From Desulfohalovibrio reitneri (lineage in GTDB: Bacteria > Desulfobacterota > Desulfovibrionia > Desulfovibrionales > Desulfovibrionaceae): a stretch of DNA of 64,000 nucleotides. Numbering within the stretch: position 1 is the first letter of the stretch; the number at the start of each line of letters is the position of its first letter. The stretch covers positions 558,001-622,000 of the forward strand of contig NZ_JOMJ01000004.1 of the NCBI RefSeq assembly GCF_000711295.1. Reading direction: 5' to 3'. The position numbers and the translations under genes were made by a program. This document shows, in pieces, positions 4,311-60,347 of this stretch. The notes below the pieces were generated by a model, which saw only the letters and a program-made list of their open reading frames with translations, was not told where the DNA came from and did not search any database.

Positions 4311-4354
4311 GGGGAATGGCGCGGGATCAGCGAGGGACCCGCCAAGCCGGATAC

Positions 4355-4394
4355 AAAAAGCCGCCCTCCGGAGCGAACCCGGGGGGCGGCTTTT
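4355..4394. terminator. Bidirectional intrinsic terminator
   Basis: A GC-rich stem (AAAAGCCGCCC pairing with GGGCGGCTTTT) with a 17-base loop has A-rich and T-rich sides. It can end both the plus-strand chemoreceptor and the minus-strand Mth938-like gene that converge here. Confidence 0.85.
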
Positions 4395-4416
4395 CCGGTG
4401 TCCGAGGGTGGCCCTT

Positions 4417-4764
4417 TCAGCAGGTCAAATGGAAGGCCCCGGCCACGTCGCGGCCTTCTTTTTCCAGCTTGTTGAAGGTCTGGTACGCCTCGCCGGTTTT
4501 CTGGGCGATGAGTTCGATGCCGCGCTTGTCCAGTTCGTCCTTCAGGCGCGGGTCCACCCGCATGACGCCGTTGGCCCCGGTGCCGATGACCAGCACCTCC
4601 GGCCCGGCCTGGAGGATGTCCTTTACGTCCTCCGGGGCGCAGTTGTGTCCCTCCTTGCGCCACCAGTCGTCGTTCACCCGGCCCTGGATGATCTTCACGT
4701 CGTTGCGGGCCTGTTTGCCGTCCACCTTCATGTTGCCGAAGGAGTAGGTGTTGATTTCCGTCAT
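4417..4764 (-). CDS. Mth938-like domain protein (DUF498 family)
   Basis: This 115-aa protein matches the small Mth938/AAMDC fold: an N-terminal YSFGNMKVDG strand, the conserved EVLVIGTGANGVMRVDP core, and a C-terminal GAFHLTC ending. The biochemical role of the family is not established; relatives sit near respiratory-chain assembly and oxidoreductase genes. Its start overlaps the stop of the upstream flavoprotein gene by four bases (4761-4764), so the two are co-transcribed and coupled. That context suggests a redox or metabolite-sensing role, which is inference. The gene ends before the bidirectional terminator at 4355-4394. Confidence 0.85.
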   Translation of the reverse strand: MTEINTYSFGNMKVDGKQARNDVKIIQGRVNDDWWRKEGHNCAPEDVKDILQAGPEVLVIGTGANGVMRVDPRLKDELDKRGIELIAQKTGEAYQTFNKLEKEGRDVAGAFHLTC

Positions 4765-6467
4765 GTTGTCGCCTCCGTGGCGTCTTGGTCGGATTCCATG
4801 CGCTTGAGGTCCTCGAACACGGTCATGGCTGCAGCGGAGCCGTCGCCGATGGCCGTGACGATCTGCCGCACCCCGCCGGTGACGTCGCCCGCGGCGTAGA
4901 TTCTGGGGATGGATGTGCGGCCGAAGCGGTCGGTCTCGATGGAGCCGTCGTCCAAAAGCTTGAGGCCGAGCTGGCGGGCAAGCTGGTTGTTGGGCTTTTC
5001 GCCGATGGCCAAAAAGAGCCCGGCCGTCTCCTCCTCCCAGGTCTCCCCGCTGACCACGTTGCGCAGCCGAACGCGCTCCAGTTCCTCGTCGCCCAGCATC
5101 TCCTCCACCACGGTGTTCCAGTGCACCGGCACGCCCTCGCGCTGGATGGAGCGCTGCAAGTGGTCCTGGGCGCGGAAGGCGTCGCGGCGGTGGACCACGG
5201 TCACGTCCGCGCCGAGGTTCTTCAGGTGCAGGGCGTCGGTCAGGGCTGTGTTGCCGCCGCCCACCACCAGCGCCTTGCGGCCCTGGTACAGGTAGGCGTC
5301 GCAGGCCGCGCAGTGGGACACCCCGCGCCCGTAGAACTTCTGCTCGCCAGGAACGCCCAAAAAGCGCCAGGTGGCCCCGGTGGCCAGCAGCACCGCCCGG
5401 CAGCGGTACACCGTGCCCGGCGTGACCACTTCGATGTCCCGGCCCACCTTGATTTCCCCGACCTCCACGCCCTCCAGCACGTCCACGTATTGCCGGGCGT
5501 GCTGGGCCAGCACCTCCACCAGCTTGGAGCCGGGGGTGCTCAAAAAGCCGGGGTAGTTCTCCACCACCGGGGTCACGGCCACCTGACCGCCCACGTTCTT
5601 GCGTTCCAGGACCACGGTGCGCAGCCCGGCCCGCACGGCGTAGATGGCACCGGCCAGTCCGCCCGGGCCGCCGCCCACGATGACCAGGTCGCGGTCCACC
5701 ACCTGGGGGCCGTGGTCGTGGTGGTGTTCGTGGTCATGGTCGTGTCCGCCGTACTTCTCGGCCAGCTCCTCGGCGGTCATCAGAAAGACCATTTCGGCGA
5801 CGAACCGCTCCTGCTGCTCCATGCCCAGCAGGTCCAGTTGTTCGTTGATGGTGGTGTGCGGCACGCTGCCCACGTTGAAGCGCCGGGCCAATTCCTGGTT
5901 CTCGGCGATCTCCACAACCTGCACGGAGACAAGCTCCGGCTTGGCCATGTGGGCGGCCAGGGCGTTGGCCACCTGGCCGGGGCAGTAGGGGCAGGTGGGG
6001 GAGACGAAAACCCGCACCCGCCGCTCGTCGCGCAACTCGTCCAGCACGTGCCGGGAGGTATCGGAGAGGTCGTCCCGGCCTTGGCTCATGGCCGCAATGG
6101 CGTCCACGATTACACGCGCCTCCTCGCCCGCCGGAGTGCCGGTATAGGCCAACTTGTACGGCTCGCGGGAGAGGAGCAGGGTGGGCGACTCGGCGATGCC
6201 GGACTCCTTGCCGGCTTCGGAATCCAGGTCGATTTCCTCCAACCGTACCTTCTCCCCCAGCCGTGCCAGGTCGCGGCAGAATTTGCGGCAGAAATCGGCG
6301 TACTGCTGGTTGCCATCGGCGCGCAGGTACAATCGCAGATCGACCGGCTCCTCCATTTTCTCGAACAGCCCGGCCACGTAGTCGCGGCTGTCTTCTGGCA
6401 GCAGCCAGCCGTTGTCCTGGCCGCCGTCGTTCTTCTTCTTGCCGCTCAGCTTGTCCAGAATGCCCAT
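4761..6467 (-). CDS. AhpF/thioredoxin-reductase-like flavoprotein with N-terminal thioredoxin-fold pair
   Basis: This 568-aa protein has two N-terminal thioredoxin-like folds, about 25-125 and 145-235. The second bears the redox motif TCPYCPGQ (Cys159/Cys162). A His/Asp-rich linker follows (about 242-252, GGHDHDHEHHHDHG). The rest is a TrxR-type FAD/NAD(P)H module: FAD Rossmann motif VGGGPGG, active-site pair HCAACDAYL (Cys386/Cys389), pyridine-nucleotide motif VVGGGNTALTDAL, and terminal FAD motif IYAAGDVTGG. This matches the AhpF architecture, in which electrons pass from NAD(P)H through FAD to the Trx-like domain and then to a peroxiredoxin or other disulfide partner. No ahpC gene is adjacent, so the partner is unknown. 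It lies 9 bases downstream of sppA. Confidence 0.9.
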   Translation of the reverse strand: MGILDKLSGKKKNDGGQDNGWLLPEDSRDYVAGLFEKMEEPVDLRLYLRADGNQQYADFCRKFCRDLARLGEKVRLEEIDLDSEAGKESGIAESPTLLLSREPYKLAYTGTPAGEEARVIVDAIAAMSQGRDDLSDTSRHVLDELRDERRVRVFVSPTCPYCPGQVANALAAHMAKPELVSVQVVEIAENQELARRFNVGSVPHTTINEQLDLLGMEQQERFVAEMVFLMTAEELAEKYGGHDHDHEHHHDHGPQVVDRDLVIVGGGPGGLAGAIYAVRAGLRTVVLERKNVGGQVAVTPVVENYPGFLSTPGSKLVEVLAQHARQYVDVLEGVEVGEIKVGRDIEVVTPGTVYRCRAVLLATGATWRFLGVPGEQKFYGRGVSHCAACDAYLYQGRKALVVGGGNTALTDALHLKNLGADVTVVHRRDAFRAQDHLQRSIQREGVPVHWNTVVEEMLGDEELERVRLRNVVSGETWEEETAGLFLAIGEKPNNQLARQLGLKLLDDGSIETDRFGRTSIPRIYAAGDVTGGVRQIVTAIGDGSAAAMTVFEDLKRMESDQDATEATT

Positions 6468-44447: not shown

Positions 44448-45362
44448 ATGCGCGTCATCATCACCGGCGGAACCGGATACATTGGAAGGCACCTCGTGGA
44501 GGCCCTGCTCGAACGGGGCGACGAGGCGGTCGTTCTTTCCCGCAGCCAGGGCAAGGTGCGAGAGGCCTTCGGAGGCCGGGCCAGCGCCGCCACCTGGGAC
44601 GGCCGCACGGCCGAAGGCTGGGGGCAGTTGGCGGACGGCGCGGACGCCATCGTTAATCTGGCCGGGGAGAGCATTTTCGGCGGTCGCTGGCTGCCGGTCA
44701 AAAAGAAGCGGATCATGGAGTCGCGGACAAATGCCGGGCGGGCTGTGACCGAGGCGGTCCGCCAGGCGGAGAAGAAGCCTTCCGTGGTGGTTCAGGGAGC
44801 GGCCGTGGGGTGCTACGGCGACAGGCCCCCGCCGCCCGCCACGGAGGACGCGCCCTTGGGCGAGGGCTTCTTGGCGGATGTCTGTCGCGAATGGGAAGCG
44901 TCCACCAGCGAGGTGGAGGACATGGGCGTGCGAAGGGCCGTGGCCCGCACGGGGCTGGTGTGCAGCCGCGACGGCGGGGCCCTGGCGGCAATGCTTTCTC
45001 CCTTCAAACTGGGGCTGGGGGGACCCATCGGCGACGGCAAGCAAGGCTTTCCATGGATAGCCCTGGAGGACGAGGTGGGGGCCATCCTGCATCTGTTGGA
45101 TACCCCTGAATGCCATGGTCCCTTCAACCTGACTGCGCCGGACGTGGTGGACAACCGCGCCTTCTCGAAAGAGCTGGCCCGGGCGCTGCGCCGTCCCTCG
45201 TTTTTCCGCGCCCCGGCCTGCGTGCTGCGCGCCCTGCTGGGCGAAATGGCCGAGGAGATGCTGCTGCAGGGGCAGTTCGTGGATTCCTCCAAGCTGCGGA
45301 ACAGCGGCTACGTTTTTCGGGAACCCGCACTACGGGATTTCCTTGAACGCTTATTCAGATAA
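44448..45362 (+). CDS. NAD(P)-dependent SDR39U1/TIGR01777-type epimerase-like protein
   Basis: This 304-aa extended-SDR protein has the nucleotide motif VIITGGTGYIGRHLVEALLE, LAGESIFGGRWLPVKKKRIM, VVQGAAVGCYGDRPP in the catalytic segment, and a C-terminal DUF1731 region (FRAPACVLRALLGEMAEEML, FVDSSKLRNSGYVFREPA). Family members (YfcH, SDR39U1) are poorly characterised. It is embedded between the kinase and the HD-GYP protein, spaced by 70 and about 106 bases, so it may belong to the same transcript. Confidence 0.88.
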   Translation: MRVIITGGTGYIGRHLVEALLERGDEAVVLSRSQGKVREAFGGRASAATWDGRTAEGWGQLADGADAIVNLAGESIFGGRWLPVKKKRIMESRTNAGRAVTEAVRQAEKKPSVVVQGAAVGCYGDRPPPPATEDAPLGEGFLADVCREWEASTSEVEDMGVRRAVARTGLVCSRDGGALAAMLSPFKLGLGGPIGDGKQGFPWIALEDEVGAILHLLDTPECHGPFNLTAPDVVDNRAFSKELARALRRPSFFRAPACVLRALLGEMAEEMLLQGQFVDSSKLRNSGYVFREPALRDFLERLFR

Positions 45363-45468
45363 GCCTTTACAGAGCGGGGAAGCGTGCCCTATTCTTTTGA
45401 ACATGGTGGGAGGAACGGGAACCGCGTTGCGACGGGTCGCTCAGGCCCCGGACCGGCGGGAGGCCGGC

Positions 45469-46863
45469 ATGGCTGAGGAAGGCGCCCTTCGCGTTCTGGT
45501 TGTGGAGGACGAGGGGGTCGTTTCCCTGGACATCCGCAACCGGCTCAAACGCATGGGCATGCAGGTGGTCGGGCAGGCGGACTCCGGCGAGGAGGCGGTG
45601 CGGCTGGCTGTGGAGCAGACGCCGGACCTGGTGCTCATGGACATCATGCTGGCCGGCGAGATGGACGGCATCGAGGCGGCCTCACGCATCCGCGACTCCG
45701 TTGGGACCCCGGTCATCTTTCTTACCGCCTACGCGGACGAGGCCACTCTTGACCGGGCCAAGATTTCCACGCCGTTCGGCTACATCGTCAAGCCCTTCGA
45801 GGATCGCGAACTGGCCATCAACATCGAGATGGCCCTCTACAAATACAAGATGGACCGCCGCCTGCGCGACAACGAGCGCTGGTTGGACACCACCCTGCGT
45901 TCCATTGGCGATGGGGTCATCACCACTGACCAGGACGGCCGCGTGACTTTCGTCAACCCCGAGGCCTTGCGCATATTGGGGCAGGACGGGGAGGAATGGC
46001 TGGGACAGAAGCTGGACGGGGTGCTGCGTCTGACCAGCGAGGAGACCGGAGAGCCTGTGCGGGACATGGCGGGCCGCGTCCTGCGGGGTGAGGAGGCCTG
46101 CTGCTCCTCGGACAATATGCTGCTTTTCCCGCCGGTTGGAGAGCCCGCTCCGGTGAACATCACCATCTCCCCCATCCGGCGCGGGCGCGAGGGGGACGTC
46201 ATGGGCGCGGTGCTGGTCATCCGCGACATCTCCGAGCGCAAGCACTCCGAGCAGGAGCTGCGCGCCTACGTGCGGCGGCTGAAAACCACCCTGGAGCAGA
46301 CGGTCAACGCCCTGGCCATCACCTCGGAGAAGCGCGACCCGTACACGGCTGGGCACCAGCAGCGTGTGGCCCAGTTGGCCTGCGCCATGGCAAAGGAATT
46401 GGGGCTGGACGAGGACAAGGTGGAGGGCATCCGGGTGGCCGCCCTGTTGCACGACATCGGCAAGATCTACGTCCCGGCGGAAATCCTTTCCAAGCCCGCC
46501 CGGCTGACCAATATGGAGATGGGCATTGTCAAGACCCACCCCGAGGTGGGCTACGACATTCTCAAGGAGGTGCCCTTCCCATGGCCTGTGGCGGAGATCG
46601 TGCTGCAGCACCATGAACGGGTGGACGGCTCCGGCTACCCTTCCGGCCTCAGGCGGCAGGACATCCTGCCAGAGGCGCGCATCCTCTGCGTGGCCGACGT
46701 GGTGGAGGCCATGTCCTCCCACCGCCCCTACCGAGCCGCCCTCGGCCCGGACCTGGCCCTCAAGGAGATCACCAAGAACCGTGGCCATCTGTACGACTCC
46801 GAGCTCGTGGATGTCTGTATCAGCCTGTTCAACGACGGCTTCAACTTCAAACAGTTCGACTAG
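45469..46863 (+). CDS. Response regulator REC-PAS-HD-GYP, probable c-di-GMP phosphodiesterase
   Basis: ATG 45469 behind CGGGAGG gives 464 aa; the frame reaches back to 45343 inside the SDR gene. Parts: receiver (about 8-120) with phospho-Asp in LVLMDIMLAGEMDGIEAASR and the Lys in GYIVKPFEDRE; PAS (about 135-250); HD-GYP (about 275-460) with VAALLHDIGKIYVPAEILSK and LQHHERVDGSGYPSGLRRQD. The HD and HHExxDGSGYP metal and catalytic motifs are intact. It should hydrolyse c-di-GMP in response to phosphorylation, likely from the NtrY-like kinase or another sensor. There is no GGDEF domain. Confidence 0.94.
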   Translation: MAEEGALRVLVVEDEGVVSLDIRNRLKRMGMQVVGQADSGEEAVRLAVEQTPDLVLMDIMLAGEMDGIEAASRIRDSVGTPVIFLTAYADEATLDRAKISTPFGYIVKPFEDRELAINIEMALYKYKMDRRLRDNERWLDTTLRSIGDGVITTDQDGRVTFVNPEALRILGQDGEEWLGQKLDGVLRLTSEETGEPVRDMAGRVLRGEEACCSSDNMLLFPPVGEPAPVNITISPIRRGREGDVMGAVLVIRDISERKHSEQELRAYVRRLKTTLEQTVNALAITSEKRDPYTAGHQQRVAQLACAMAKELGLDEDKVEGIRVAALLHDIGKIYVPAEILSKPARLTNMEMGIVKTHPEVGYDILKEVPFPWPVAEIVLQHHERVDGSGYPSGLRRQDILPEARILCVADVVEAMSSHRPYRAALGPDLALKEITKNRGHLYDSELVDVCISLFNDGFNFKQFD

Positions 46864-50388: not shown

Positions 50389-51690
50389 TCAGCCCCGGGG
50401 CTCCCGGTCGTCGATGGCCACGTAGTCCCGCTGGACGGGGCCGGTATAGACCTGCCTGGGACGGTGGATTTTGGTCGGGCCGTGGTTTTCCTCGGCCCAG
50501 TGGGCGATCCAGCCGGGCATGCGGCCGATGGCGAACATGACCGGGTACATGTTCACCGGGATGCCCAGGGTGCGCAGGATGATGCCGGAATAGAAGTCCA
50601 CGTTGGGGTAGAGGCTGCGCTCGATGAAGAAATCGTCGGACAGGGCCGCGTTCTCCAGTTCCTTGGCGATCTCGAGCAGGGGGTCGTTGTGCTTGTCCTG
50701 CTCCAGGAGCAGGTCGTGGGCGGCCTGCTTGAGGATGCGGGCTCGGGGGTCGAAGCTTTTGTAGACCCTGTGGCCGAAGCCCATGAGCCGCATTTCCTTG
50801 TTTTTCACCTTTTCCAGGTATTCGGTGACTGTCAGGTCGCCCTGGCGGATGGACTCCAGCATGTCGATGACGGCGGCGTTGGCCCCGCCGTGAAGCCGCC
50901 CCCACAGGGCGCAGATGCCCGCGGAGATGGAGGCGAAGAGGTTGGCCTGCGTGGAGCCCACCATGCGCACGGTTGAGGTGGAGCAGTTCTGCTCGTGGTC
51001 GGCGTGCACCAGAAGGAAGAGGGAGAGCGCCCGCACCTGCGCCCGCGTGGGCTCGAACTCCTTGTAAGGGATGGAGAACATCATGTGCAGGAAATTGGCG
51101 CAGTAGGAGCGGTTGGGGTCGGGGTAGACCAGGGGCTTGCCCAGGGACTTGCGGTAGGCGAAGGCCGCGATGGTGCGCACCTTGGAAATGATTTTGCCCA
51201 CGGCCAGCCGAAATTCCTCCGGCGTCTGGATGTCCAGCAGGTCCGGGTGGTAGCTGGCGAAGGAGTTGATGACCGCCGAAAGGATGGACATGGGCTGCCC
51301 ATAGGGAGGGAAGCCCTCGAAGTGGTGCAGCAGGTCCTCGTGCAGCAACTCCTGGTTGATGAGCATCTCGCGGAAGGTGTCGCGCTCCCGCTGGGTGGGC
51401 AGCTCGCCGAAGATGAGGAGCATGACCGTCTCGATGAAGGAGCTGTGTTCGGCCAACTGCTCGACGGGATAGCCCCGGTGGCGCAGGATGCCCCTTTCGC
51501 CGTCCACGAAGGTGATGTCCGAGGTGCATGAGCCGGTGTTGGCGTAGCCGGGGTCGAAGGTGATGCAGCCGGAGTCGTTGCGCAGGTTGCGCACGTCAAT
51601 GGCCCGCTCTCCCTCGGACCCCACGATGACGGGCAGTTCGTACCGCTCGTCGCCAATGGTCAGAATGGCGTTTTGCGTGTTTTTGGACAT
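50389..51690 (-). CDS. gltA: Si-type citrate synthase
   Basis: This 433-aa type-II citrate synthase has the catalytic triad: His in LLVHADHEQNCSTSTVRMVG, the second His in GRLHGGANAAVIDML and Asp in YPNVDFYSGIILRTLG, with MGFGHRVYKSFDPRARILKQ binding acetyl-CoA/oxaloacetate. It makes citrate at the entry of the TCA route. Model Desulfovibrio vulgaris uses a Re-type enzyme, so a gltA-type gene here is a metabolic note. It is divergent from the sigma-54 activator, with about 180 bases between starts, which hold no clear promoter match. Confidence 0.96.
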   Translation of the reverse strand: MSKNTQNAILTIGDERYELPVIVGSEGERAIDVRNLRNDSGCITFDPGYANTGSCTSDITFVDGERGILRHRGYPVEQLAEHSSFIETVMLLIFGELPTQRERDTFREMLINQELLHEDLLHHFEGFPPYGQPMSILSAVINSFASYHPDLLDIQTPEEFRLAVGKIISKVRTIAAFAYRKSLGKPLVYPDPNRSYCANFLHMMFSIPYKEFEPTRAQVRALSLFLLVHADHEQNCSTSTVRMVGSTQANLFASISAGICALWGRLHGGANAAVIDMLESIRQGDLTVTEYLEKVKNKEMRLMGFGHRVYKSFDPRARILKQAAHDLLLEQDKHNDPLLEIAKELENAALSDDFFIERSLYPNVDFYSGIILRTLGIPVNMYPVMFAIGRMPGWIAHWAEENHGPTKIHRPRQVYTGPVQRDYVAIDDREPRG

Positions 51691-51872: not shown

Positions 51873-53618
51873 ATGCCTGCCAACCGTTTCGACGCCCCGC
51901 CCGAGGCCGACCTGTTCCGGGAGATTCTGGACGAACAGGCCGGCATGGTCCTCCGGCTCGACGAGGAGGGGCGCATCGTCTACGCCAACACCGCCTGCCA
52001 CGAGTTTTTCGGGCAGGACCTGCCCGAGCGTTTCGTCGAACTGTTCTCCCCTGTCTTGCGCCGTGACCTGGAAGACGCCCTGAACAAGCTGGGCGGCGAG
52101 AGGCAGCGCGCCTCCCGCGAGTTGCGCCTGGCCTCGGGAGGGGGGGAGCGGTGGCTCGAAATGACCCTGCGGGTGCTGCTGGACGCCAACGGGGCGCGGC
52201 GCGGCGTGCTGGTCGAAGGGCGCGACATCACCACCCGCAAGATCGCCCAGGAAGCCCTGCTGCAGGTCACGGGGGAGAAGGAGCACTTCCGGCTCAATCT
52301 GGAAGCCATCTTCCAGTCCATCCCCGACGGCATCGTCACCGTGGACCGCGACATGCGCGTTATCCGGGCCAACAAGAACCTTGCCGCCATCCTCGACCTC
52401 GACGAGGCCGGACTGGCCCCGGGCGAGGTCCTGAATGCCGACCAGGACCGCCCTTGCCGAGCGGGTTTGCGGCAGGTGGTGGAGCAGACGCTGGAAAACC
52501 GGCGCGGCGTGCGGGAGTACCGCGTCGACTGTCGCCAGGACCCACGCCCACGCGAGCTGGTTCTCAATTCCTCGCCCCTCATGGACCACCACGGAACATT
52601 CGCGGGCGCGGTGGTGGCCGTGCGCGACATCACCCGGCTGGCGGACCTGGAGCGCAAGCTCTCGGAGCGGCACAGTTTCCAGAACATCGTGGGCAAAAGC
52701 CAGGCCATGCGGCGGGTCTACGACCTGCTGGAGCAGCTGGCAGGAGTGGACACCACCGTGCTGGTGCTTGGTGAGTCCGGCACCGGCAAGGAGCTGGTGG
52801 TGGACGCCCTGCACTATTCCGGCCCCAGGGCGCGCGGCCCCCTGGTCAAGGTCAACTGTTCGGCGCTCACCGAGAACCTGCTGGAGAGCGAGTTGTTCGG
52901 CCACGTCAAGGGCGCCTTCACCGGGGCCACCCAGGACAAGGTGGGGCGCTTTCAGGCGGCCGAGGGGGGAACCATCTTTCTGGACGAGATCGGCGACATC
53001 AGCCCCCGCATCCAGCTCAAGCTGCTGCGCGGCCTGGAGCGCAAGGAGTTCGAGCGGGTGGGCGACTCCCGCACCTACCGGGTGGACACCCGCGTGGTGG
53101 CGGCCACCAACGTTGACCTGCTGCAAAAGGTCAAGTCCGGAGAGTTCCGCGAGGACCTGTACTACCGACTGAAGGTGGTCACGGTCCGTCTGCCGCCCCT
53201 GCGGGAGCGCAAGGAGGACATCCCCCCGCTGGTGGAGCACTTTCTCGAGGAGTTCCGGGGCGCCTTCGGCAAGGAGCTGGAAGGGGTGGACGAAAACGCC
53301 ATGGCCCAGTTCATGCGCTACTCCTGGCCGGGCAACGTGCGGGAGTTGAAGCACGCCATGGAGCACGCCTGCATTTTGAGCCGTGACAGCCGCATCGCGG
53401 TGGCCGATCTTCCCCAGGAACTCCAGGAGCAGGTGAGCGGCCAGCCGGAAGCCGGACCCGCGCCGTCCACCAGCCGCAAGCCTGCGGGCCTGGAGCGCGA
53501 GGACATTCTGCGCGCCCTGCGCGAGACGGGCGGCAACAAGGCCAAGGCCGCTCGGGTCCTTGGCATCAGCCGCCGCACTCTCTACCGCAAGATGGACGAA
53601 CTCCGCGTCGCGCCCTGA
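51873..53618 (+). CDS. PAS-PAS sigma-54 activator (enhancer-binding protein)
   Basis: ATG 51873 behind GGAGAGG is preferred to the GTG at 51867 (581 aa). Two PAS domains (about 10-115 and 135-245, with ILDEQAGMVLRLDEEGRIVY and SIPDGIVTVDRDMRVIRANK) precede the AAA+ core: FQNIVGKSQAMRRVYDLLEQ, Walker A VLGESGTGKELVVDALHYSG, FGHVKGAFTGATQDKVGRFQ and Walker B GGTIFLDEIGDIS. A Fis-type HTH (NKAKAARVLGISRRTLYRKM) ends it. There is no receiver, so it senses a ligand or redox signal directly. It likely controls the downstream promoter at 53767-53783 through the repeats at 53629-53688. Confidence 0.93.
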   Translation: MPANRFDAPPEADLFREILDEQAGMVLRLDEEGRIVYANTACHEFFGQDLPERFVELFSPVLRRDLEDALNKLGGERQRASRELRLASGGGERWLEMTLRVLLDANGARRGVLVEGRDITTRKIAQEALLQVTGEKEHFRLNLEAIFQSIPDGIVTVDRDMRVIRANKNLAAILDLDEAGLAPGEVLNADQDRPCRAGLRQVVEQTLENRRGVREYRVDCRQDPRPRELVLNSSPLMDHHGTFAGAVVAVRDITRLADLERKLSERHSFQNIVGKSQAMRRVYDLLEQLAGVDTTVLVLGESGTGKELVVDALHYSGPRARGPLVKVNCSALTENLLESELFGHVKGAFTGATQDKVGRFQAAEGGTIFLDEIGDISPRIQLKLLRGLERKEFERVGDSRTYRVDTRVVAATNVDLLQKVKSGEFREDLYYRLKVVTVRLPPLRERKEDIPPLVEHFLEEFRGAFGKELEGVDENAMAQFMRYSWPGNVRELKHAMEHACILSRDSRIAVADLPQELQEQVSGQPEAGPAPSTSRKPAGLEREDILRALRETGGNKAKAARVLGISRRTLYRKMDELRVAP

Positions 53619-53628
53619 CCGTGCGGGC

Positions 53629-53688
53629 GTGTGCCACTACCCTGCGTGGCACACATGTGTGACATTACACACCTGTGTCATGGCACAC
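53629..53688 (+). promoter_or_regulatory. Array of TGTGnCA half-sites: probable enhancer for the sigma-54 activator
   Basis: A perfect 9-bp inverted repeat GTGTGCCAC-N8-GTGGCACAC (53629-53654) is followed by TGTGACA (53658), TGTGTCA (53674) and the inverse TGGCACA (53682): five TGTG[C/A/T]CA half-sites in 60 bases. They lie 79-138 bases upstream of the -24/-12 promoter, at the usual distance for an upstream activating sequence, and directly after the activator gene. Confidence 0.7.
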
Positions 53689-53766
53689 TCGGGGCAAAAC
53701 GCTTCGCACTGGCATCTTTCTACATATCATACCAATATTACAGTAAAAAAATCAACTTTGGGAGAC

Positions 53767-53783
53767 TTGGCATCCTCCTTGCT
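53767..53783 (+). promoter_or_regulatory. Sigma-54 (-24/-12) promoter
   Basis: TTGGCATCCTCCTTGCT has the invariant GG and GC dinucleotides separated by exactly 10 bases and matches the YTGGCA...TTGCW consensus. It is 38 bases upstream of the thioredoxin-fold gene, which starts at 53821. Confidence 0.8.
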
Positions 53784-53820
53784 CATATCCAGGCAACAGG
53801 ACGTGAGGGGGGGAATCGAC

Positions 53821-54153
53821 ATGACGCCCACAGTACGGGGCGCGACAGAGTTCGAAGCGGAAGTTCTGGGCCAGGCCGATCCGGTCTTGGTGGCCTGCCT
53901 GGACGAGCGGGGGGAGATGGACGGCCTCGCCGAGGCCGTCCATACCGCCGCGAAAAGCTTCGAAGGGGAAATCAGGGTCCGCCTGGTGGACAGTGATCTC
54001 CTCCCCATGCTGCGGAACAGGCTGGGCGTCACCGGAACGCCCACCATCCTCCTCTTCAAGGAGGGGAGGGAATGCAGCAGGCTTCTGGGGCGGTTTGAAG
54101 ACGAGCACATTCTGGCCTTCCTGCGCCGCCACCTGGACGCCACGGCTCATTGA
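53821..54153 (+). CDS. Thioredoxin-fold protein lacking the CxxC motif (110 aa)
   Basis: ATG 53821 behind a GGGGGGGA tract. Order of elements fits the thioredoxin fold: ADPVLVACLDERGEMDGLAE where WCGPC normally lies (only one Cys, position 26), EIRVRLVDSDLLPMLRNRLG, then the cis-Pro strand VTGTPTILLFKEGRECSRLL and a C-terminal helix. It therefore cannot perform ordinary dithiol exchange. It might act as a chaperone or binding partner, or use a single Cys. It is the sole gene under the predicted sigma-54 promoter, and further members of the transcript may have been displaced by the ISL3 insertion. Confidence 0.8.
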   Translation: MTPTVRGATEFEAEVLGQADPVLVACLDERGEMDGLAEAVHTAAKSFEGEIRVRLVDSDLLPMLRNRLGVTGTPTILLFKEGRECSRLLGRFEDEHILAFLRRHLDATAH

Positions 54154-54418
54154 ACAGACAGGTATTTCGCTGCCGGAAACGCCGCGTTAGCATATCCGTC
54201 CGCTTCCCGAACACCGAAGCGGAGCGCGACCGAACAGTGTTCGGGCGCCTGGCATATGACAGCGAGGGGGGAAAAGGGCGATCCGGCAGCGTTCTTTCAG
54301 CAGCCGATAGCGTGCCTTCACTCGGGGTGAACAACCGGCGCGAAATATTCGGCGAATCGGGCGGAACCGCAACCAAGCGGGTTCCGGGGCGCACCTGGGG
54401 GGAGCGTCCCGGCCGCCC
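54154..54418 (+). other. Hairpin-rich non-coding region between the thioredoxin-fold gene and the ISL3 element
   Basis: No supported gene. Inverted repeats: CGCTTC/GAAGCG (54201-54221) and CCCGAACAC/GTGTTCGGG (54206-54245) share bases and are mutually exclusive; CGGAACC/GGTTCCG (54362-54386); CGGGGCGC/GCGTCCCG (54385-54411). The stretch ends in a T-run into which the ISL3 element inserted. It may be a structured 3' UTR or small RNA; I recognise no known class. Confidence 0.45.
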
Positions 54419-54426
54419 ATTTTTTT

Positions 54427-54453
54427 GGTCCTTCCGGGATTTCAGTGGGTGGC
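54427..54453 (+). repeat. ISL3 left terminal inverted repeat
   Basis: It starts GGTCCTTCCGGGATTTCAGT and continues to GGGTGGC. The right end matches it in reverse complement at about 21 of 27 positions. Confidence 0.8.
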
Positions 54454-55692
54454 TCCGGTTTTGCAGGCCGGATAGAGGTCCAATCCACCACAGAAGAAGT
54501 AGATCGCCGTCTTGAAGTGCTCTTTGTTCCTGTAGCCGCAAGCTCGGCGTTTGATTGCCATGATCTTGCTGTTCAGTCCCTCGGCCACGGCGTTGGTGAT
54601 TCGATGCCGGCAAAAGGTCACCACGTTGTCCATGTGAGCTCTCAAGGTCTGGGCCACCTTCTTCATCGGCGTGATCCGGGATCGCGTGGCCCAACCGCAC
54701 CATTTCTCCAGGAACCTCTTTGCCCAGCCAGGGCTCATGTAGCCCCACAGATCCTGCAGGCTTTCCTTCATGGCCCAGGCTTTGGCCGTCTTCAGGTTGG
54801 CCTGCTTGAGGTCATCGAACCGAGGTCTGTGCTTATCCGGCAGACGGCTTTCGCCGTAAAGCCACAGGTATCTGGTGCCCTTGAGGATTGACTCCCCTTC
54901 GGCCATCAGGGCCTTGTGTTCCTGACGCCGGACAGTGTCCACCGCTTTCCCCACGTGTTGCATGACGTGGAAACGGTCAAAGACGATTTTCCGGCTTGCC
55001 TCAGGGATCCACTTCATAGTGGCCGAAAAATACGGCTGCCACATGTCCATGCTCACGGCCCGCACTGCTTCCAGCTGCTCGCTACTCAGGCTTTGATAAT
55101 ACGCCTCGAGGCTCGCCGTTCGGCGATCTTCAGCAACATGCTCAACTGTGCCCCTCATCAGATCGCAGACGACGGTCATGTACTTGTGTCCCTTGCGGAA
55201 AGCCTTCTCGTCCACCCCGAGGTAGTGGATATTGCGCTGTTCCTTGCGGCTCAAGCCTCTTTTGACGGCTCGTTCCATGATCCCCCAGGTCTCGTCCCAG
55301 GAAATACGCAACAGCCTGCGTGCACCTTCGATGGTCGAACAGGCCGTAATCACGTCAATGGCCATGCGCTCCATGAGCAGGGTGAAACGAGAATGGGGAG
55401 CGGCCCAGGGGACCTGTGCTTGGCGTACGCCGTGATCAGGACAGTTAACTCGTGGAATACGTGCATGAAGAAATGTCTTGAACTGGCAGGTATCTAGATG
55501 TCTCCATGTCCGTTCTTCGGCATGATCCCGGCAAGCCAACTCTCGCCCGCACTCTGGGCAAGACCAAAGAGCGCCAGGCTCATGATCGATCCACACATCC
55601 ACTCGCCCAGCCCCAGTCTGGAGCTTCACGTCATCCACATGCCAGGGGTGGTCAATGCCAAGAATCTGAGCATAGAAATCGATGTCCCTCAT
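54442..55692 (-). CDS. ISL3-family DDE transposase
   Basis: ATG 55692 behind GAGGAG gives 416 aa. An N-terminal zinc-ribbon (SCPECGRELACRDHAEERTW, NCPDHG) precedes the helical ISL3 region and the DDE domain: LGVDEKAFRKGHKYMTVVCD for the first Asp, VSMDMWQPYFSATMKWIPEA for the second, and the C-terminal TNAVAEGLNSKIMAIKRRAC with Glu. The frame is unbroken. It sits within the 54427-55758 element. Confidence 0.95.
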   Translation of the reverse strand: MRDIDFYAQILGIDHPWHVDDVKLQTGAGRVDVWIDHEPGALWSCPECGRELACRDHAEERTWRHLDTCQFKTFLHARIPRVNCPDHGVRQAQVPWAAPHSRFTLLMERMAIDVITACSTIEGARRLLRISWDETWGIMERAVKRGLSRKEQRNIHYLGVDEKAFRKGHKYMTVVCDLMRGTVEHVAEDRRTASLEAYYQSLSSEQLEAVRAVSMDMWQPYFSATMKWIPEASRKIVFDRFHVMQHVGKAVDTVRRQEHKALMAEGESILKGTRYLWLYGESRLPDKHRPRFDDLKQANLKTAKAWAMKESLQDLWGYMSPGWAKRFLEKWCGWATRSRITPMKKVAQTLRAHMDNVVTFCRHRITNAVAEGLNSKIMAIKRRACGYRNKEHFKTAIYFFCGGLDLYPACKTGATH

Positions 55693-55731
55693 GAGCAATG
55701 TCTCCTCTAGAACAGAGGACTACCTCAGGCT

Positions 55732-55758
55732 GCTACCCACGACAATTCCGGAAGAACC
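55732..55758 (-). repeat. ISL3 right terminal inverted repeat
   Basis: The reverse complement starts GGTTCTTCCGGAATTGTCGT, pairing with the left end at 54427-54453. Confidence 0.8.
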
Positions 55759-55766
55759 ATTTTTTT

Positions 55767-55943
55767 TTGCCTGTGGCCTTCATTTCCTATGGATTTTTAT
55801 CTTCGCGGGGGGTACAAAGAAATCACCCCCTCCTGTCATGCGCCAGTCCTAACGGCGCATCACAGCCCCTTCGTCCGGTCGGACCGCCAGGTCCGGCCGG
55901 GCGAAGTTTATTTCGGCACCCGGCTGGAAGGGACCTCTTCCCA
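55767..55943. other. Intergenic region with strong hairpins right of the ISL3 element
   Basis: No gene is supported. ATGCGCC/GGCGCAT with flanking CTGT/ACAG (55834-55865) and GGTCGGACC/GGTCCGGCC (about 55879-55900) form stems. They may end the lipoprotein transcript arriving from the right, but there is no clean T-tract. Confidence 0.4.
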
Positions 55944-56378
55944 TTATTGTTTGGTCACGGTCACGTCGAGGGTGCGGTAGACGCCCAGCTTTCTTCCCGT
56001 CTTGTCGTCCAGGAGAATGAAGTCCACCGTGGTATCGCCCGGCTCCTGGGCGATGAAGGAATAGATGTACGCGCCGCCGGACTTCTCGCCGGATGTGGAG
56101 GTGGTGGGCGGTTCGTAGCGGAAGCCAGAATACATCAGCACCAGGGGCTTGTACTCCGGCCGCTCGGCCAAAAAGCCCTCAGCGGGCTGCTCGATGGTCA
56201 CGCTGAGATAATCCCCGGCGGGCAGGCTGGCTTCCTGGTCGGCGTCCTCGGCCTTGGGGAAGACCACGTGGTGGTCCTCCGGCTCCCACAATGGGCCGCC
56301 GCGTTCGGTGATGCCGCAGCCCGTCAGCGTGAACGATACGGTCAGCAGCAGGACGAGCAGTGCTGGGCGAAGGTTCAT
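55944..56378 (-). CDS. Small lipoprotein, periplasmic beta-rich
   Basis: ATG 56378 (144 aa) overlaps the YkgJ-type gene by four bases (ATGA); the frame continues to 57230 only as a shadow. The signal sequence LLVLLLTVSFTLTGCGITER has a lipobox LTGC. The mature domain is strand-rich, DYLSVTIEQPAEGFL, then LVLMYSGFRYEPPTTSTSGE, YIYSFIAQEPGDTTVDFILL and LGVYRTLDVTVTKQ, resembling protease-inhibitor-like or proteinase-binding PepSY/chagasin-type beta folds. I would not assign a name beyond lipoprotein. Confidence 0.8.
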   Translation of the reverse strand: MNLRPALLVLLLTVSFTLTGCGITERGGPLWEPEDHHVVFPKAEDADQEASLPAGDYLSVTIEQPAEGFLAERPEYKPLVLMYSGFRYEPPTTSTSGEKSGGAYIYSFIAQEPGDTTVDFILLDDKTGRKLGVYRTLDVTVTKQ

Positions 56379-57151
56379 TCGGTCTCCTCCGGATCGATCT
56401 TGCGCAGGTTCTCGCACTCGTTGAACAACACCAGTTCCACCCAATCCATGGCGAATTCCAGGGCGGCCTCCTCGTCGTCGAGAATGGCCTGTTGCCTCTC
56501 CTCGTCCACGTCCAGGCGGGAGAAGATGTTCATGTCGCGGATGAAGCGCTGGAAGTTGTCCAACTGGTACAGGGCCATCAGGGCCATGGTGGCCTTGCGG
56601 CCGTCGATGGCGGCCCCGGCGCGTTTCTGCCGCGCCAGCAGCTTCACGTAGCGGTCGTTGCTGGCGTTGTAGTCCTCCAGCCCCTGGTCGGCCACCCAGG
56701 TCTCCGGAGTCCACTCCACGTCCTGCTCGAAACCCCGGCAGTGCGGCTCTTGCACCAGGAAGAACTGTTCGATGATCTCGTCCTCTCCGCCCAGCTTGGA
56801 TGCCCGGCCAACGGGGTAGCCCCGGCAGGCGCTGGGGCGGTTGAGGTACACCTTGCAGCCCTCCTTGGAGACGAAGGGGCAGGGCTTGCCCTCCCCGTCC
56901 ATCATTTTCAGCCGCAGGGTGGGGAAACCGGTGTCCGGGGCCGTGGAGACCTCGGCCCGGCCCTGGATGAACTCCTTGCTGCCCTCGTTCAGCTCGCGGC
57001 GCAGCCGCAGGGCGTCGTAGGGGGTCAGCATCAGGGTCAGGTCGCCGCAACAGGCGTTGAAGCAGGGCACGTCCGGGTGGCAGGCGAAACGGAAGGTCTC
57101 GCCGGGCTTCACCTCGGGCAGGCTGTCGAGAAAGGCTTGGGAGTCGTCCAT
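56375..57151 (-). CDS. YkgJ-family cysteine cluster protein
   Basis: ATG 57151 (258 aa) is chosen because the family's conserved start region follows (FLDSLPEVKPGETFRFACHP). The Cys cluster is FACHPDVPCFNACCGDL, then KPCPFVSKEGCKVYLNRPSA with more Cys (CRGYPVG, PHCRGFEQ), the CxxxCC pattern of YkgJ/FliB-like iron- or zinc-binding proteins. It is followed by the helical GRKATMALMALYQLDNFQRF. The function is unknown; the cluster suggests metal binding. It is translationally coupled to the downstream lipoprotein gene. Confidence 0.85.
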   Translation of the reverse strand: MDDSQAFLDSLPEVKPGETFRFACHPDVPCFNACCGDLTLMLTPYDALRLRRELNEGSKEFIQGRAEVSTAPDTGFPTLRLKMMDGEGKPCPFVSKEGCKVYLNRPSACRGYPVGRASKLGGEDEIIEQFFLVQEPHCRGFEQDVEWTPETWVADQGLEDYNASNDRYVKLLARQKRAGAAIDGRKATMALMALYQLDNFQRFIRDMNIFSRLDVDEERQQAILDDEEAALEFAMDWVELVLFNECENLRKIDPEETE

Positions 57152-57247
57152 GGGTATCCTTGCGCCGTTGGCGCGGGCTTTGTCGGGTTTCGTTTCGGCC
57201 GCAAATAAACCCTGGCGGGCGCGGAGGCAACCCCGCACTCCGGTTGC

Positions 57248-57909: not shown

Positions 57910-58599
57910 CTACAATCTGCTCAGGCCCCGGGCCAGGTCGTCGAGCGCGTCAGGGTCGACCACCCGCACCTTGCGACCATCCAGGCGGATGTACCCGGCC
58001 TCGTCCATCTTGCGCAGCATGCGTGACAACGTCTCCGGCTGGGCCCCCAGCAGGGCGGCGAGCTGGCCCTTGGGCAGGTCCAGCTCGAAAGCGTCCGCTC
58101 CGGTTTCGGCCCGCAACAGCAGGATGTGGGCGGCCAGCCGCTGAGGGGCCTCCCGCAGGCTGAGCGCTTCCACCTTCTGTGTGAACTCGCGCAGTCGTCC
58201 GGCCAGCAGCCCAAGCATGGCCATGGACAGGTCCGGCTCACGGGCCAGCAGGGAGCGGAAGGCGTCGCGCCCGAAAAAGAGCATCCGCGACGGCTCCAGG
58301 GTCATGGCCGAGGCGGGGTAGTCGCCCCCGGAAAAGACCGCGGCCTCGGCCAGCACGCCGCCGGGACCGAAGACATGCAGAATTTGCTCCTTGCCCGAAG
58401 GGGAGAGCTTGTAAACCTTCACCCGGCCTTCCACCACGGCGTAGAAGCCCTCGGCCCGCTGGCCTTCGTTGAAGAGCACACGATCCGCCGGGCGGGAAAC
58501 TTCCGTGGCCGTTGCCATGACCTTGTCCAGCTGCTCAGCCGAAAGGCCCTGGAAGAGGGGCAGAGAGGCGGCGGCGCGGGCGCTGTCCGTTTCCTGCAA
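57910..58599 (-). CDS. Crp/Fnr-family regulator, HcpR-like
   Basis: I choose TTG 58599 (229 aa): GAGG sits eight bases upstream, and the frame to 58671 would run through the palindrome at 58616-58629. A cNMP-like sensor domain (SLPLFQGLSAEQLDKVMATA, EGRVKVYKLSPSGKEQILHV) is followed by a dimer helix and an HTH with LPKGQLAALLGAQPETLSRM. There is no N-terminal Fe-S cysteine set as in FNR; HcpR senses nitric oxide, reportedly through haem. It is adjacent and divergent to hcp and probably controls hcp, frdX and itself. Confidence 0.88.
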   Translation of the reverse strand: MQETDSARAAASLPLFQGLSAEQLDKVMATATEVSRPADRVLFNEGQRAEGFYAVVEGRVKVYKLSPSGKEQILHVFGPGGVLAEAAVFSGGDYPASAMTLEPSRMLFFGRDAFRSLLAREPDLSMAMLGLLAGRLREFTQKVEALSLREAPQRLAAHILLLRAETGADAFELDLPKGQLAALLGAQPETLSRMLRKMDEAGYIRLDGRKVRVVDPDALDDLARGLSRL

Positions 58600-58615
58600 A
58601 ATTTTTTCCTCGCTT

Positions 58616-58629
58616 TTGACGTGGGTCAA
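58616..58629. promoter_or_regulatory. HcpR-type operator between the regulator gene and hcp
   Basis: TTGAC-GTGG-GTCAA, a perfect 5-bp palindrome (extended TTTGAC/GTCAAA), lies 17 bases before the regulator start and 69 bases before the hcp ATG. The same motif recurs upstream of frdX at 60370-60383. Confidence 0.8.
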
Positions 58630-58697
58630 ACCGCAGGCGTCGGAAATACCCCATGGTGGCCCCAACGACAAGGCAACCGAAACCCACGGAGGACATC

Positions 58698-60347
58698 ATG
58701 TTTTGTTACCAGTGCGAACAGACCGCCAGAGGCGAGGCCTGCACCAAGCAGGGCGTATGCGGAAAGAAAGGCGACGTGGCCGCCATGCAGGACCTGCTGG
58801 TCCACGTCGCCAAGGGGCTGTCCCGGGTGGCCCTGGCCGCCCGCGAGCAGGGCGTTTATGAACAGGACCTGGGCCATCTGACCGCCCGCGCCATGTTCGC
58901 CACCCTGACCAACGTGGACTTCGACCCCGAGCGGCTGGCCGAACTCGTGCGCCAGGTGGCCTCCCGCCGCGATGCCCTGGCCGAGAAGGTCCGCGCCAAG
59001 GGCGGAACCGTTCCCGAGAACGACGCCGTCACCCTCCAGCCCGCGGCCGACGTGCAAGGCATGGTGGCCCAGGGCGAACAGCGCGGCATCGAGGAAGACC
59101 CCGAGATGGACGCGGACATCAAGTCCCTCAAGCAGACCGTCATCTACGGCGTGAAGGGCCTGTGCGCCTACGCCGACCACGCGGCCATCCTGGGCCAGGA
59201 GGACGAGGACCTCTACCGCCAAGTGCACCAGCTGCTGGCCGACACCATGCGCATGGACCTGGAATTGGGCGCCTGGGTAGAGCGCGCCATGCAGACCGGC
59301 CAGGTGAACCTGCGCGCCATGGAGCTGTTGGACGCGGGCAACACCGGCACCTACGGCCATCCCACCCCCACCGAGGTGCCCCTGGGCCACAAGGCGGGCC
59401 CGGCCATCGTGGTCTCCGGCCACGACCTGCCCGACCTGGAGATGCTTTTGGAGCAGACCGAGGGCAAGGGCATCACCGTCTACACCCACGGCGAAATGCT
59501 GCCCTGCCACGGCTACCCCAAGCTCAAGGAGCGCTTCCCCCACCTGTGGGGCCACTTCGGCACGGCCTGGCAGAACCAGCAGAAGGAGTTCGCCGAGCTG
59601 CCCGGCGCGGTGCTCATGACCACCAACTGCCTCATGCCCCCGCGCGACACCTACATGGACAACCTCTACACCACCGGGCTGGTGGCCTGGCCGGGCGTGC
59701 CGCACATTGATGGCGGCGTCGACGGCAAGAAGGACTTCACCCCCGTCATCGAGAAGGCCCTGGCCCTTGGCGGCTTCGAGAGCGACGAGGACAAGGGCAA
59801 GGTGCTCACGGGCTTCGCCCGCGAGGCCGTGCTCGGCGTGGCCGACAAGGTCATCGACGCGGTCAAGTCCGGCGCGGTACGCCACTTCTTCCTGGTGGCG
59901 GGCTGCGACGGCGCCAAGCCGGGCCGCAACTACTACACCGAGTTCGTGGAGCAGGCCCCCGAGGACACCATCATCCTCACTCTGGCCTGCGGCAAGTTCC
60001 GCTTCTTCGACAAGCAGCTGGGCGACATCGGCGGTATCCCGCGCCTGCTGGACATCGGCCAGTGCAACGATTCCTACTCGGCAATCAAGATCGCCAGCGC
60101 CCTGGCCGAGGCCTTCGACTGCGGCATCAACGACCTGCCGCTGTCCATGGTCCTTTCCTGGTACGAGCAGAAGGCCGTGGCCATCCTGCTGACCCTGCTG
60201 GCCCTGGGCATCAAGGACATCCGCCTCGGACCCAGCCTGCCCGCCTTCCTGAGCGAGAACGTGCTCAACTACCTGGTGGAGAACTACGGCATCAAGCCCA
60301 TCACCACCCCCGAGGAAGACTTGGCCGACCTGCTGCCGGCGGCCTAG
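58698..60347 (+). CDS. hcp: Hybrid cluster protein (hydroxylamine reductase)
   Basis: ATG 58698 behind CGGAGGACATC gives 549 aa. The N-terminal CYQCEQTARGEACTKQGVCG holds Cys3, Cys6, Cys15 and Cys21 of the [4Fe-4S] cluster. The hybrid Fe-S-O cluster ligands are spread in YTHGEMLPCHGYPKLKER, VLMTTNCLMPPRD, FLVAGCDGAKPGRNYYTEF and LPLSMVLSWYEQKAV. Spacing matches anaerobe-type Hcp. It reduces nitric oxide (and hydroxylamine in vitro) and protects against nitrosative stress. It is regulated by the adjacent HcpR-like protein and terminated by the hairpin at 60351-60371. Confidence 0.97.
   Translation: MFCYQCEQTARGEACTKQGVCGKKGDVAAMQDLLVHVAKGLSRVALAAREQGVYEQDLGHLTARAMFATLTNVDFDPERLAELVRQVASRRDALAEKVRAKGGTVPENDAVTLQPAADVQGMVAQGEQRGIEEDPEMDADIKSLKQTVIYGVKGLCAYADHAAILGQEDEDLYRQVHQLLADTMRMDLELGAWVERAMQTGQVNLRAMELLDAGNTGTYGHPTPTEVPLGHKAGPAIVVSGHDLPDLEMLLEQTEGKGITVYTHGEMLPCHGYPKLKERFPHLWGHFGTAWQNQQKEFAELPGAVLMTTNCLMPPRDTYMDNLYTTGLVAWPGVPHIDGGVDGKKDFTPVIEKALALGGFESDEDKGKVLTGFAREAVLGVADKVIDAVKSGAVRHFFLVAGCDGAKPGRNYYTEFVEQAPEDTIILTLACGKFRFFDKQLGDIGGIPRLLDIGQCNDSYSAIKIASALAEAFDCGINDLPLSMVLSWYEQKAVAILLTLLALGIKDIRLGPSLPAFLSENVLNYLVENYGIKPITTPEEDLADLLPAA

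Follow-up and report, generated by a model that had tools for sequence, protein, structure and literature searches.

The stretch from 51873 to 54153 of the window (the 64-kb length of Desulfohalovibrio reitneri DNA that was analysed as a whole) is best explained as a single-target sigma-54 switch, with an estimated probability only slightly above one half (about 0.52). On this reading, the product of the switch would be a non-redox partner protein, its likeliest target would be the activator, and the transcript would perhaps also act as the antagonist of a small RNA. In the proposed mechanism, a PAS-PAS activator would sense a signal and bind five half-sites located just 3' of its own gene. 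The bound activator would then open a single sigma-54 promoter (53768-53783), as predicted from its sequence and its conservation, and the transcript would yield a thioredoxin-fold protein without CxxC, acting as a dedicated protein partner. The likeliest target of this small protein would be the activator itself, as no other neighbour recurs at nearly every locus. For the window and its closest kin, the transcript would extend into a 3' region whose sequence is complementary to that of a neighbouring small-RNA-like element (E2), and complementarity and conservation suggest that E2 may be tied up when the module is switched on. The components of the module are as follows.

51873-53618, + strand: PAS-PAS-AAA+-Fis sigma-54 activator (one-component enhancer-binding protein), 581 aa (Pfam PAS_4/PAS, Sigma54_activat and HTH_8)
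53630-53636, + strand: half-site TGTGCCA (pattern match)
53647-53653, - strand: half-site, reading TGGCACA on the + strand (pattern match)
53658-53664, + strand: half-site TGTGACA (pattern match)
53674-53680, + strand: half-site TGTGTCA (pattern match)
53681-53687, - strand: half-site, reading TGGCACA on the + strand (pattern match)
53768-53783, + strand: predicted sigma-54 promoter TGGCATCCTCCTTGCT, GG-N10-GC (pattern and consensus score)
53821-54153, + strand: CxxC-less thioredoxin-fold protein, 110 aa, 333-nt gene (PF00085 and structure model)

The presence of a PAS-PAS activator gene, proposed in a first-pass annotation made from the sequence alone, was confirmed by Pfam, which detected two PAS folds, a Sigma54_activat domain (PF00158, 1.8e-66) and a Fis-type C-terminal HTH (PF02954 HTH_8, 4.5e-15, residues 540-576). 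The GAFTGA and Walker A (GESGTGKE) motifs were both present, and an AAA+ domain with these motifs together with a Fis-type HTH is what characterises a sigma-54 enhancer-binding protein of the NtrC/NifA type. The product of 51873-53618 is thus a sigma-54 activator by its domains, and its activation of a promoter in vivo is a prediction.

The 202-bp gap between the activator gene and the small gene contained exactly five TGTGnCA/TGnCACA half-sites, the number first reported. When the gap was subjected to 20,000 dinucleotide shuffles, no shuffle contained five half-sites and 12 contained four. A 9-bp inverted repeat with its arms at 53629-53637 and 53646-53654 encloses the first two half-sites, and the array (53630-53687) accounts for five of the ten half-sites in the 64-kb window. 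The genome (a 3.39-Mb assembly, 96.9% complete) was searched with two patterns: TGTGNCA-N4-28-TGGCACA gave four matches, three of them within the array, and TGTGYCA-N2-30-TGTGNCA gave three, of which two were within the array. Outside the array each pattern gave one lone half-site pair (C4:303028 and C3:372628), and no cluster larger than a pair was found by the two patterns anywhere else in this assembly. A wider regulon for the activator was considered and dropped, with one half-site pair per pattern beyond the array; by eye, no sigma-54 promoter was seen in 3,000 bases near the pair at C3:372628. The predicted owner of the half-sites is the activator encoded just before them.

The promoter TGGCATCCTCCTTGCT has the exact GG-N10-GC spacing that had been described for it. 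The pattern TGG[CT][AC]N6TTGC[AT] was matched in 83 of 20,000 shuffled versions of the gap; the 64-kb window has two matches, the second being inside an open reading frame (45343-46863). Judged by the shuffles of the gap (0/20,000 for the array and 83/20,000 for the promoter), both elements exceed chance. A sigma-70-like match (9/12) is also present on the + strand upstream of the small gene, at 53703-53730, and it might conceivably serve this gene as a sigma-70 promoter.

The small gene has a G-rich stretch at the position of a ribosome-binding site. Its 110-aa product matched PF00085 (3.2e-8, 34 bits, with a cut-off of 23.5), and its structure was predicted with a pLDDT of 84.0 and a pTM of 0.76. 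The best solved-structure match of the model was a thioredoxin (Z 16.2, rmsd 1.8, 104 residues), and thioredoxins were also the best matches in Foldseek (E 1.6e-8). The protein shares with PF00085 thioredoxins the fold, the cis-proline GTPT loop and a score above the cut-off, and therefore belongs to the thioredoxin superfamily, with the proline (P74) conserved in 59/59 members of the set described below. Unlike the redox thioredoxins (TrxA/TIGR01068), it has no CxxC at the active site, and its TIGR01068 score of 27 bits is below the curated cut-off of 96.8 bits.

The relatives of the small protein were collected with a profile (A1) built from six CxxC-less small proteins and run on 288 genomes of the family. 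Matches at E<=1e-6 were obtained in 265 of the 288 genomes, and those below approximately 50 bits included ordinary thioredoxins. The locus set was therefore composed of all 59 loci with at least 50 bits, window included, from 56 genomes and 11 genera. This cut is a close one: G018, at 49.7 bits, carries WCGPC (L017), and G228 and G230 of genus g8 (48.8 and 48.3 bits) are possible further members outside the set of 59. A first contig search with the small protein of the window as query had returned no relative. Two of ten extra loci (L171 and L172, Nitrospira group) were dropped as WCGHC proteins.

A small thioredoxin-fold gene without the usual redox motif had been predicted in the first-pass annotation, and this stood, together with the absence of the motif. 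The further description of WCGPC as replaced by a single cysteine was imprecise. In an alignment set by eye against the CGPC thioredoxin of the same genome (L160), VLVDFWAPWCGPC of the small protein aligned with VLVACLDERGEMD, and the CxxC positions read GEMD. This alignment places C26 at the phenylalanine of strand beta-2, off the active site. C26 is not conserved: in the 59 relatives its column contained F in 37, C in 15 and Y in 5. A second cysteine (C85) is present in the protein. The view of the cysteine as a remnant of the active site is not supported. None of the 59 members had a CxxC at the active-site position; three had one elsewhere (L116, L130 and L140, at residues 18, 45 and 50). 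Six residues (G72, P74, G82, E84, R87 and G90) were invariant in all 59. Judged from these sequences, the missing redox site is a trait of the whole small-protein family. What the alignments establish is the loss of CxxC, and at the usual site the small protein is probably incapable of dithiol chemistry.

In 58 of the 59 loci, a P0002-related activator was found upstream of the small gene and on its strand. The exception (L138) starts 183 bases from a contig end, and an activator of its genome ends another contig (L065). The gap between activator and small gene was 118-548 nt in 57 loci; in L069 it was 2,618 nt, with another reading frame in between. None of three control loci for thioredoxins (L160-L162, with CGPC, CGPC and CMPC) had a related activator in the stretch fetched. 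At E<=1e-12, matches were present in 47 of 247 genomes of the order, all belonging to the family of the window, the share of the 247 that is outside this family not being given. Both the linkage in 58/59 loci and the restriction of the half-site array to this one place by two patterns are in agreement with the dedicated sigma-54 unit with one local target that had been suggested.

In a tree of 85 activators, 58 linked and 9 unlinked activators formed a group of 67 (support 100/99), with the 18 others apart. One of the nine unlinked activators in this clade reflects a contig split, leaving 8. The label 'linked' required 6 changes on the tree, which indicates repeated gain or loss of the small gene; the sampling favours linked activators, because it was the small gene that served to select the loci. 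Among 39 genomes searched with the activator at E<=1e-112, there were 15 matches including the window, of which 7 had the small gene when the contig split was counted. From the sequences compared, the activator does not always come with the small gene, given the 8 unlinked activators and one locus (G293:C67, described below) without the gene.

The order of activator gene, half-sites, promoter and small gene recurred in the three nearest relatives (L133, L146 and L147), and the half-sites and promoter were thus not missing from all relatives carrying the gene pair. The TGTGnCA half-sites themselves were kept in the window and in these three loci. Before the same gene pair in other genera the variants TGTCTCA, TGTCCCA, TGTCGCA and TGTAACA were found. 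No TGTnnCA-type half-site was found in 3 of the 24 loci outside the Pseudodesulfovibrio groups (L123, L140 and L153) or in 22 of the 28 main-clade Pseudodesulfovibrio loci, the other main-clade loci having one to three each. Sigma-54 promoters were scored with our own weighting of the consensus (threshold 17 of 18.8, at 20-120 nt before the start codon), a score that was reached by 0.4% of mononucleotide shuffles. With L138 omitted, a match was obtained in 17 of the 24 loci outside both Pseudodesulfovibrio groups (23 from other genera plus L155, the second copy of a g5, or Pseudodesulfovibrio, genome). The second Pseudodesulfovibrio group had a match in 0 of its 6 loci, and the main clade had one in 1 of 28. 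With 1/28 sigma-54 matches and 22/28 loci without half-sites, the small gene is not everywhere controlled by the activator beside it. The persistence of the pair beyond these DNA elements in the relatives is read here as pointing to a relation between the activator and the small protein themselves, and likewise to control by the neighbour not being general.

The main-clade loci (L112-L148) presented another conserved element between the activator and the small gene, TTATAAYC..TAACG..TGATNTRATGCA, with a TGnTATGnT-like motif further on. This element was single-copy per genome in 6/6 genomes searched.

The genes 3' of the small gene varied by lineage, as assessed by Pfam on nine proteins from six loci. 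In L152, L154, L156, L158 and L159 the next gene encodes a Tat-type FAD_binding_2 protein, and genes for cytochrome c3-like and cytochrome b561/c7 proteins come after it wherever the fetched sequence extends far enough. Together these downstream genes resemble a periplasmic flavocytochrome reductase; Pfam was applied here to three L159 proteins and to one from L152. In L070, L110 and L141 a chemoreceptor-like gene begins at or near the stop codon of the small gene, and the protein of L070, the one that was tested, has a zinc-binding CZB domain. In other lineages an HD-domain response regulator follows the small gene. No metabolic client common to the annotated loci was found. Thioredoxin-fold chaperones of the HyaE/HupG type also have no CxxC and are used for protein binding, and the small protein shares with them a thioredoxin fold without a redox site. 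Unlike the setting of HyaE/HupG, no hydrogenase gene was encountered among the nine downstream proteins tested. The part of chaperone or signalling partner suggested in the first-pass annotation would be a candidate function of the small protein.

In the window, the surrounding genes included gltA upstream (50389-51690) and, on the opposite strand, genes for a lipoprotein and a CxxCxxCC-domain protein (55944-57238) and for a CRP-type regulator, all syntenic in L133, L146 and L147. The CRP-type regulator and hcp occupy 57910-60347; hcp is likewise syntenic in L133 and L146, and the sequence fetched for L147 does not include it. The names hcp, HcpR, YkgJ and gltA are putative assignments.

Further elements were found 3' of the small gene.

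54249-54271, + strand: E1 (CTGGCATATGACAGCGAGGGGGG), a conserved element of the 3' region with complementarity to the E2 5' end
54360-54426, + strand: hairpin and T-run, possible terminator of the sigma-54 transcript (fold energy; the T-run is the target of the insertion)
54427-55758, - strand: ISL3-type insertion sequence, 1,332 bp (DDE_Tnp_ISL3, 1.6e-77; ends and repeats)
54442-55698, - strand: transposase open reading frame of the ISL3-type insertion (DDE_Tnp_ISL3)
55825-55910, + strand: E2, small-RNA-like element of approximately 85 nt (fold z-score and covariance model)

The ISL3-type insertion is flanked by 8-bp repeats ATTTTTTT (54419-54426 and 55759-55766). It entered the T-run after E1 and now separates E1 from E2. 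The insertion is outside the module, with the promoter, the small gene, E1 and E2 all located beyond its ends.

E1 lies approximately 100 nt past the small gene and is kept in L133, L146 and L147 amid diverged sequence. E2 has an unpaired C-rich 5' end (ACCCCCUC), one hairpin and a long terminator-like last hairpin. Its fold z-score was -9.05, with 0/200 shuffles as low, and the window matched its covariance model (R1) at 90.5 bits. With E<=0.01 and strict filters the model found E2 in 5 of 288 genomes from 3 genera, namely the four loci used to build it and G293. All five stand behind a P0002-type activator and have the long last hairpin; the T-run that follows it reads TTTATTT in the window, and L146 and L147 have T4. 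In Rfam, the best matches of window positions 53600-55960 and of L146 positions 4300-5100 were far under the gathering scores. On the basis of fold and conservation, E2 is predicted to be an expressed small RNA, and one transcript probably runs through E1.

The fifth locus, G293:C67 (L191), has an activator frame (2505-4352), a promoter (4497), E1 (4648) and E2 (4859). Its activator is 57% identical to P0002 over 580 aa and has its best hits in L133, L147 and the window. The half-sites TGGCACA and TGTGCCA, the sigma-54 promoter TGGTACGTGGCTTGCT, E1 and E2 are all kept, and the syntenic CxxCxxCC-domain gene is also present. No match to a thioredoxin-fold gene better than E 0.095 was found within 10 kb. 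The distance from promoter to E1 was 489-532 nt in the other four loci (489 in the window) and 151 nt in G293; the difference of 338 nt between the window and G293 is near the 333-nt length of the small gene. The picture of a dedicated unit given in the first-pass annotation was supported in its sigma-54 part and incomplete in its extent, as an E1 complementary to E2 follows the small gene and is also present in the gene-less G293:C67.

E1 was the best pairing site for E2 in all five transcripts (-38.6 to -45.2 kcal/mol, versus -26.0 to -32.9 kcal/mol elsewhere). With short segments, E1-E2 pairing was -30.4 to -39.1 kcal/mol in the five loci, and of 2000 E1 sequences shuffled by mononucleotide 0, 0, 0, 4 and 4 paired equally well. 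The own partner was best in both directions for two of the five loci only (window and L133), and E1 of L147 pairs better with E2 of L146. The sequence after the small gene was also scanned blindly for long-range complementarity in 60 loci, with three block shuffles each. E1/E2 was the top pair in the window, L133 and G293, and in L146 and L147 other pairs had lower scores than E1/E2; by excess over shuffles, L122, L158 and L132 were above L146, G293 and L133. By this ranking, the scan neither singles out E1/E2 nor reveals such pairs elsewhere.

A T-run is present between E1 and E2 in all five loci. The 60 nt before the T-run at 54360-54426 fold with -35.9 kcal/mol (13/300 shuffles as low). For the hairpin between E1 and E2, 0/300 shuffles were as low in L133, L146 and L147, and 141/300 in G293, which is chance level. 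A generic terminator scan listed none at the 54360-54426 stretch.

Other roles for these sequences were tried and rejected. E1 can be read as the start of a small open reading frame (ATG/GTG, ACA or, in L133, ATG, then GCG AGG GGG/GGA), with a continuation that by eye is unconserved. E1-like sites elsewhere, as targets of the small RNA, were sought with one mismatch in 5 genomes and occurred at 16 places versus 9 for the control. Four of these places are copies of E1 proper (the G293 one and three exact matches), and without them the comparison is 12 versus 9; E1 of L133, which differs at two positions, is outside the one-mismatch list. An excess of G-runs complementary to E2 was unconvincing, as 350, 138, 19, 54 and 463 of 1000 shuffles reached the count.

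The main alternative to a feedback switch is an ordinary one-target sigma-54 regulon, with the small protein as the effector (for example a client chaperone), no feedback, and the RNA elements adjacent by accident. This is plausible but less likely than the feedback switch. Targets beside the activator gene are described as common in Desulfovibrio in the consulted part of PMC4641369, the reductase or chemoreceptor encoded after the small gene might serve as its client in some lineages, and the rarity of E2 (5/288 genomes) and the outcome of the blind scan would fit an accidental adjacency. Counting against it are the client-type neighbours, which vary by lineage whereas the activator is constant, and the position of E1 and E2 behind the activator even without the thioredoxin-fold gene in G293:C67. 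The latter locus could also mean that this lineage uses the switch mainly to produce RNA, the transcript being chiefly an antagonist of E2 and the thioredoxin-fold frame a losable passenger: activator, half-sites, promoter, E1 and E2 are retained there without a thioredoxin-fold match, and the promoter-to-E1 distance is shorter by about one small gene. The thioredoxin-fold gene, however, is spread over 11 genera and E2 over 3, and we consider this explanation distinctly unlikely.

The half-sites might instead belong to the nearby CRP-type regulator (57910-58671), which is probably HcpR, rather than to the activator. An HcpR site reported in a relative is TGTGA-N6-TCACA, according to the part of PMC5701242 consulted, and two overlapping places in the array (53656 and 53658) differ from it at 2 of 10 positions. 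Pfam classes this regulator as CRP-type; its gene lies 4 kb off and is syntenic in L133, L146 and L147. An equally good match, however, occurred in 325 of 2000 gap shuffles, the five half-sites are in mixed orientation, and the motif differs in other genera before the same gene pair, which makes this ownership very improbable.

The closest known systems share some features with the module. Desulfovibrio vulgaris has one-component sigma-54 activators with neighbouring targets, among them DVU0569 and DVU3142 (Kazakov et al. 2015, PMC4641369, in the portion consulted). They share with the present module a sensor-AAA-Fis protein and a sigma-54 promoter adjoining the activator gene; several of their predicted motifs have TGT and ACA halves, as in TGTGnCA, and the DVU0569 promoter is likewise downstream of the activator gene. 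Thioredoxin is absent from the main text of that paper, and the thioredoxin-fold target is a difference of the module described here. DVU0679 is a sigma-54 response regulator with its target small RNA directly downstream (Rajeev et al. 2011, PMC3333781, as far as the consulted text goes). In both cases an activator gene is followed by a small RNA, a controlled one in that Desulfovibrio and a small-RNA-like element here; unlike the present activator, DVU0679 is two-component, and neither an antisense pair nor a thioredoxin-fold gene was seen in the consulted portion of that report. In Campylobacter jejuni, the 3' region of an RpoN-dependent mRNA is processed into CJnc230, a small RNA repressing mRNAs (PMC11187230, consulted in part). 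An RNA function of the 3' region of a sigma-54-dependent mRNA is thus shared, as a prediction in our case, where unlike CJnc230 the 3' region is complementary to a separate small-RNA-like element. In the parts of the open-licence literature consulted, neither a thioredoxin-fold target of a sigma-54 activator nor this module was found in print.

In its most specific form, the feedback switch would produce a dual-function transcript, encoding a redox-dead protein that acts on its own activator and carrying a 3' RNA sponge for a small RNA with a C-rich, anti-Shine-Dalgarno-like 5' end, and PAS-type sigma-54 activators of the Desulfovibrionaceae would have in the family a partner specific to their clade. 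This full combination is speculative and rather unlikely. The CxxC-less family occurs almost exclusively next to a single clade of PAS-type sigma-54 activators and is a candidate dedicated partner, and as the parts are few and adjacent, the circuit could be rebuilt in a laboratory host. The locus G293:C67, without the thioredoxin-fold gene, offers a natural comparison. If the pairing of E1 with E2 is true, protein output and small-RNA control would be joined in one transcript.
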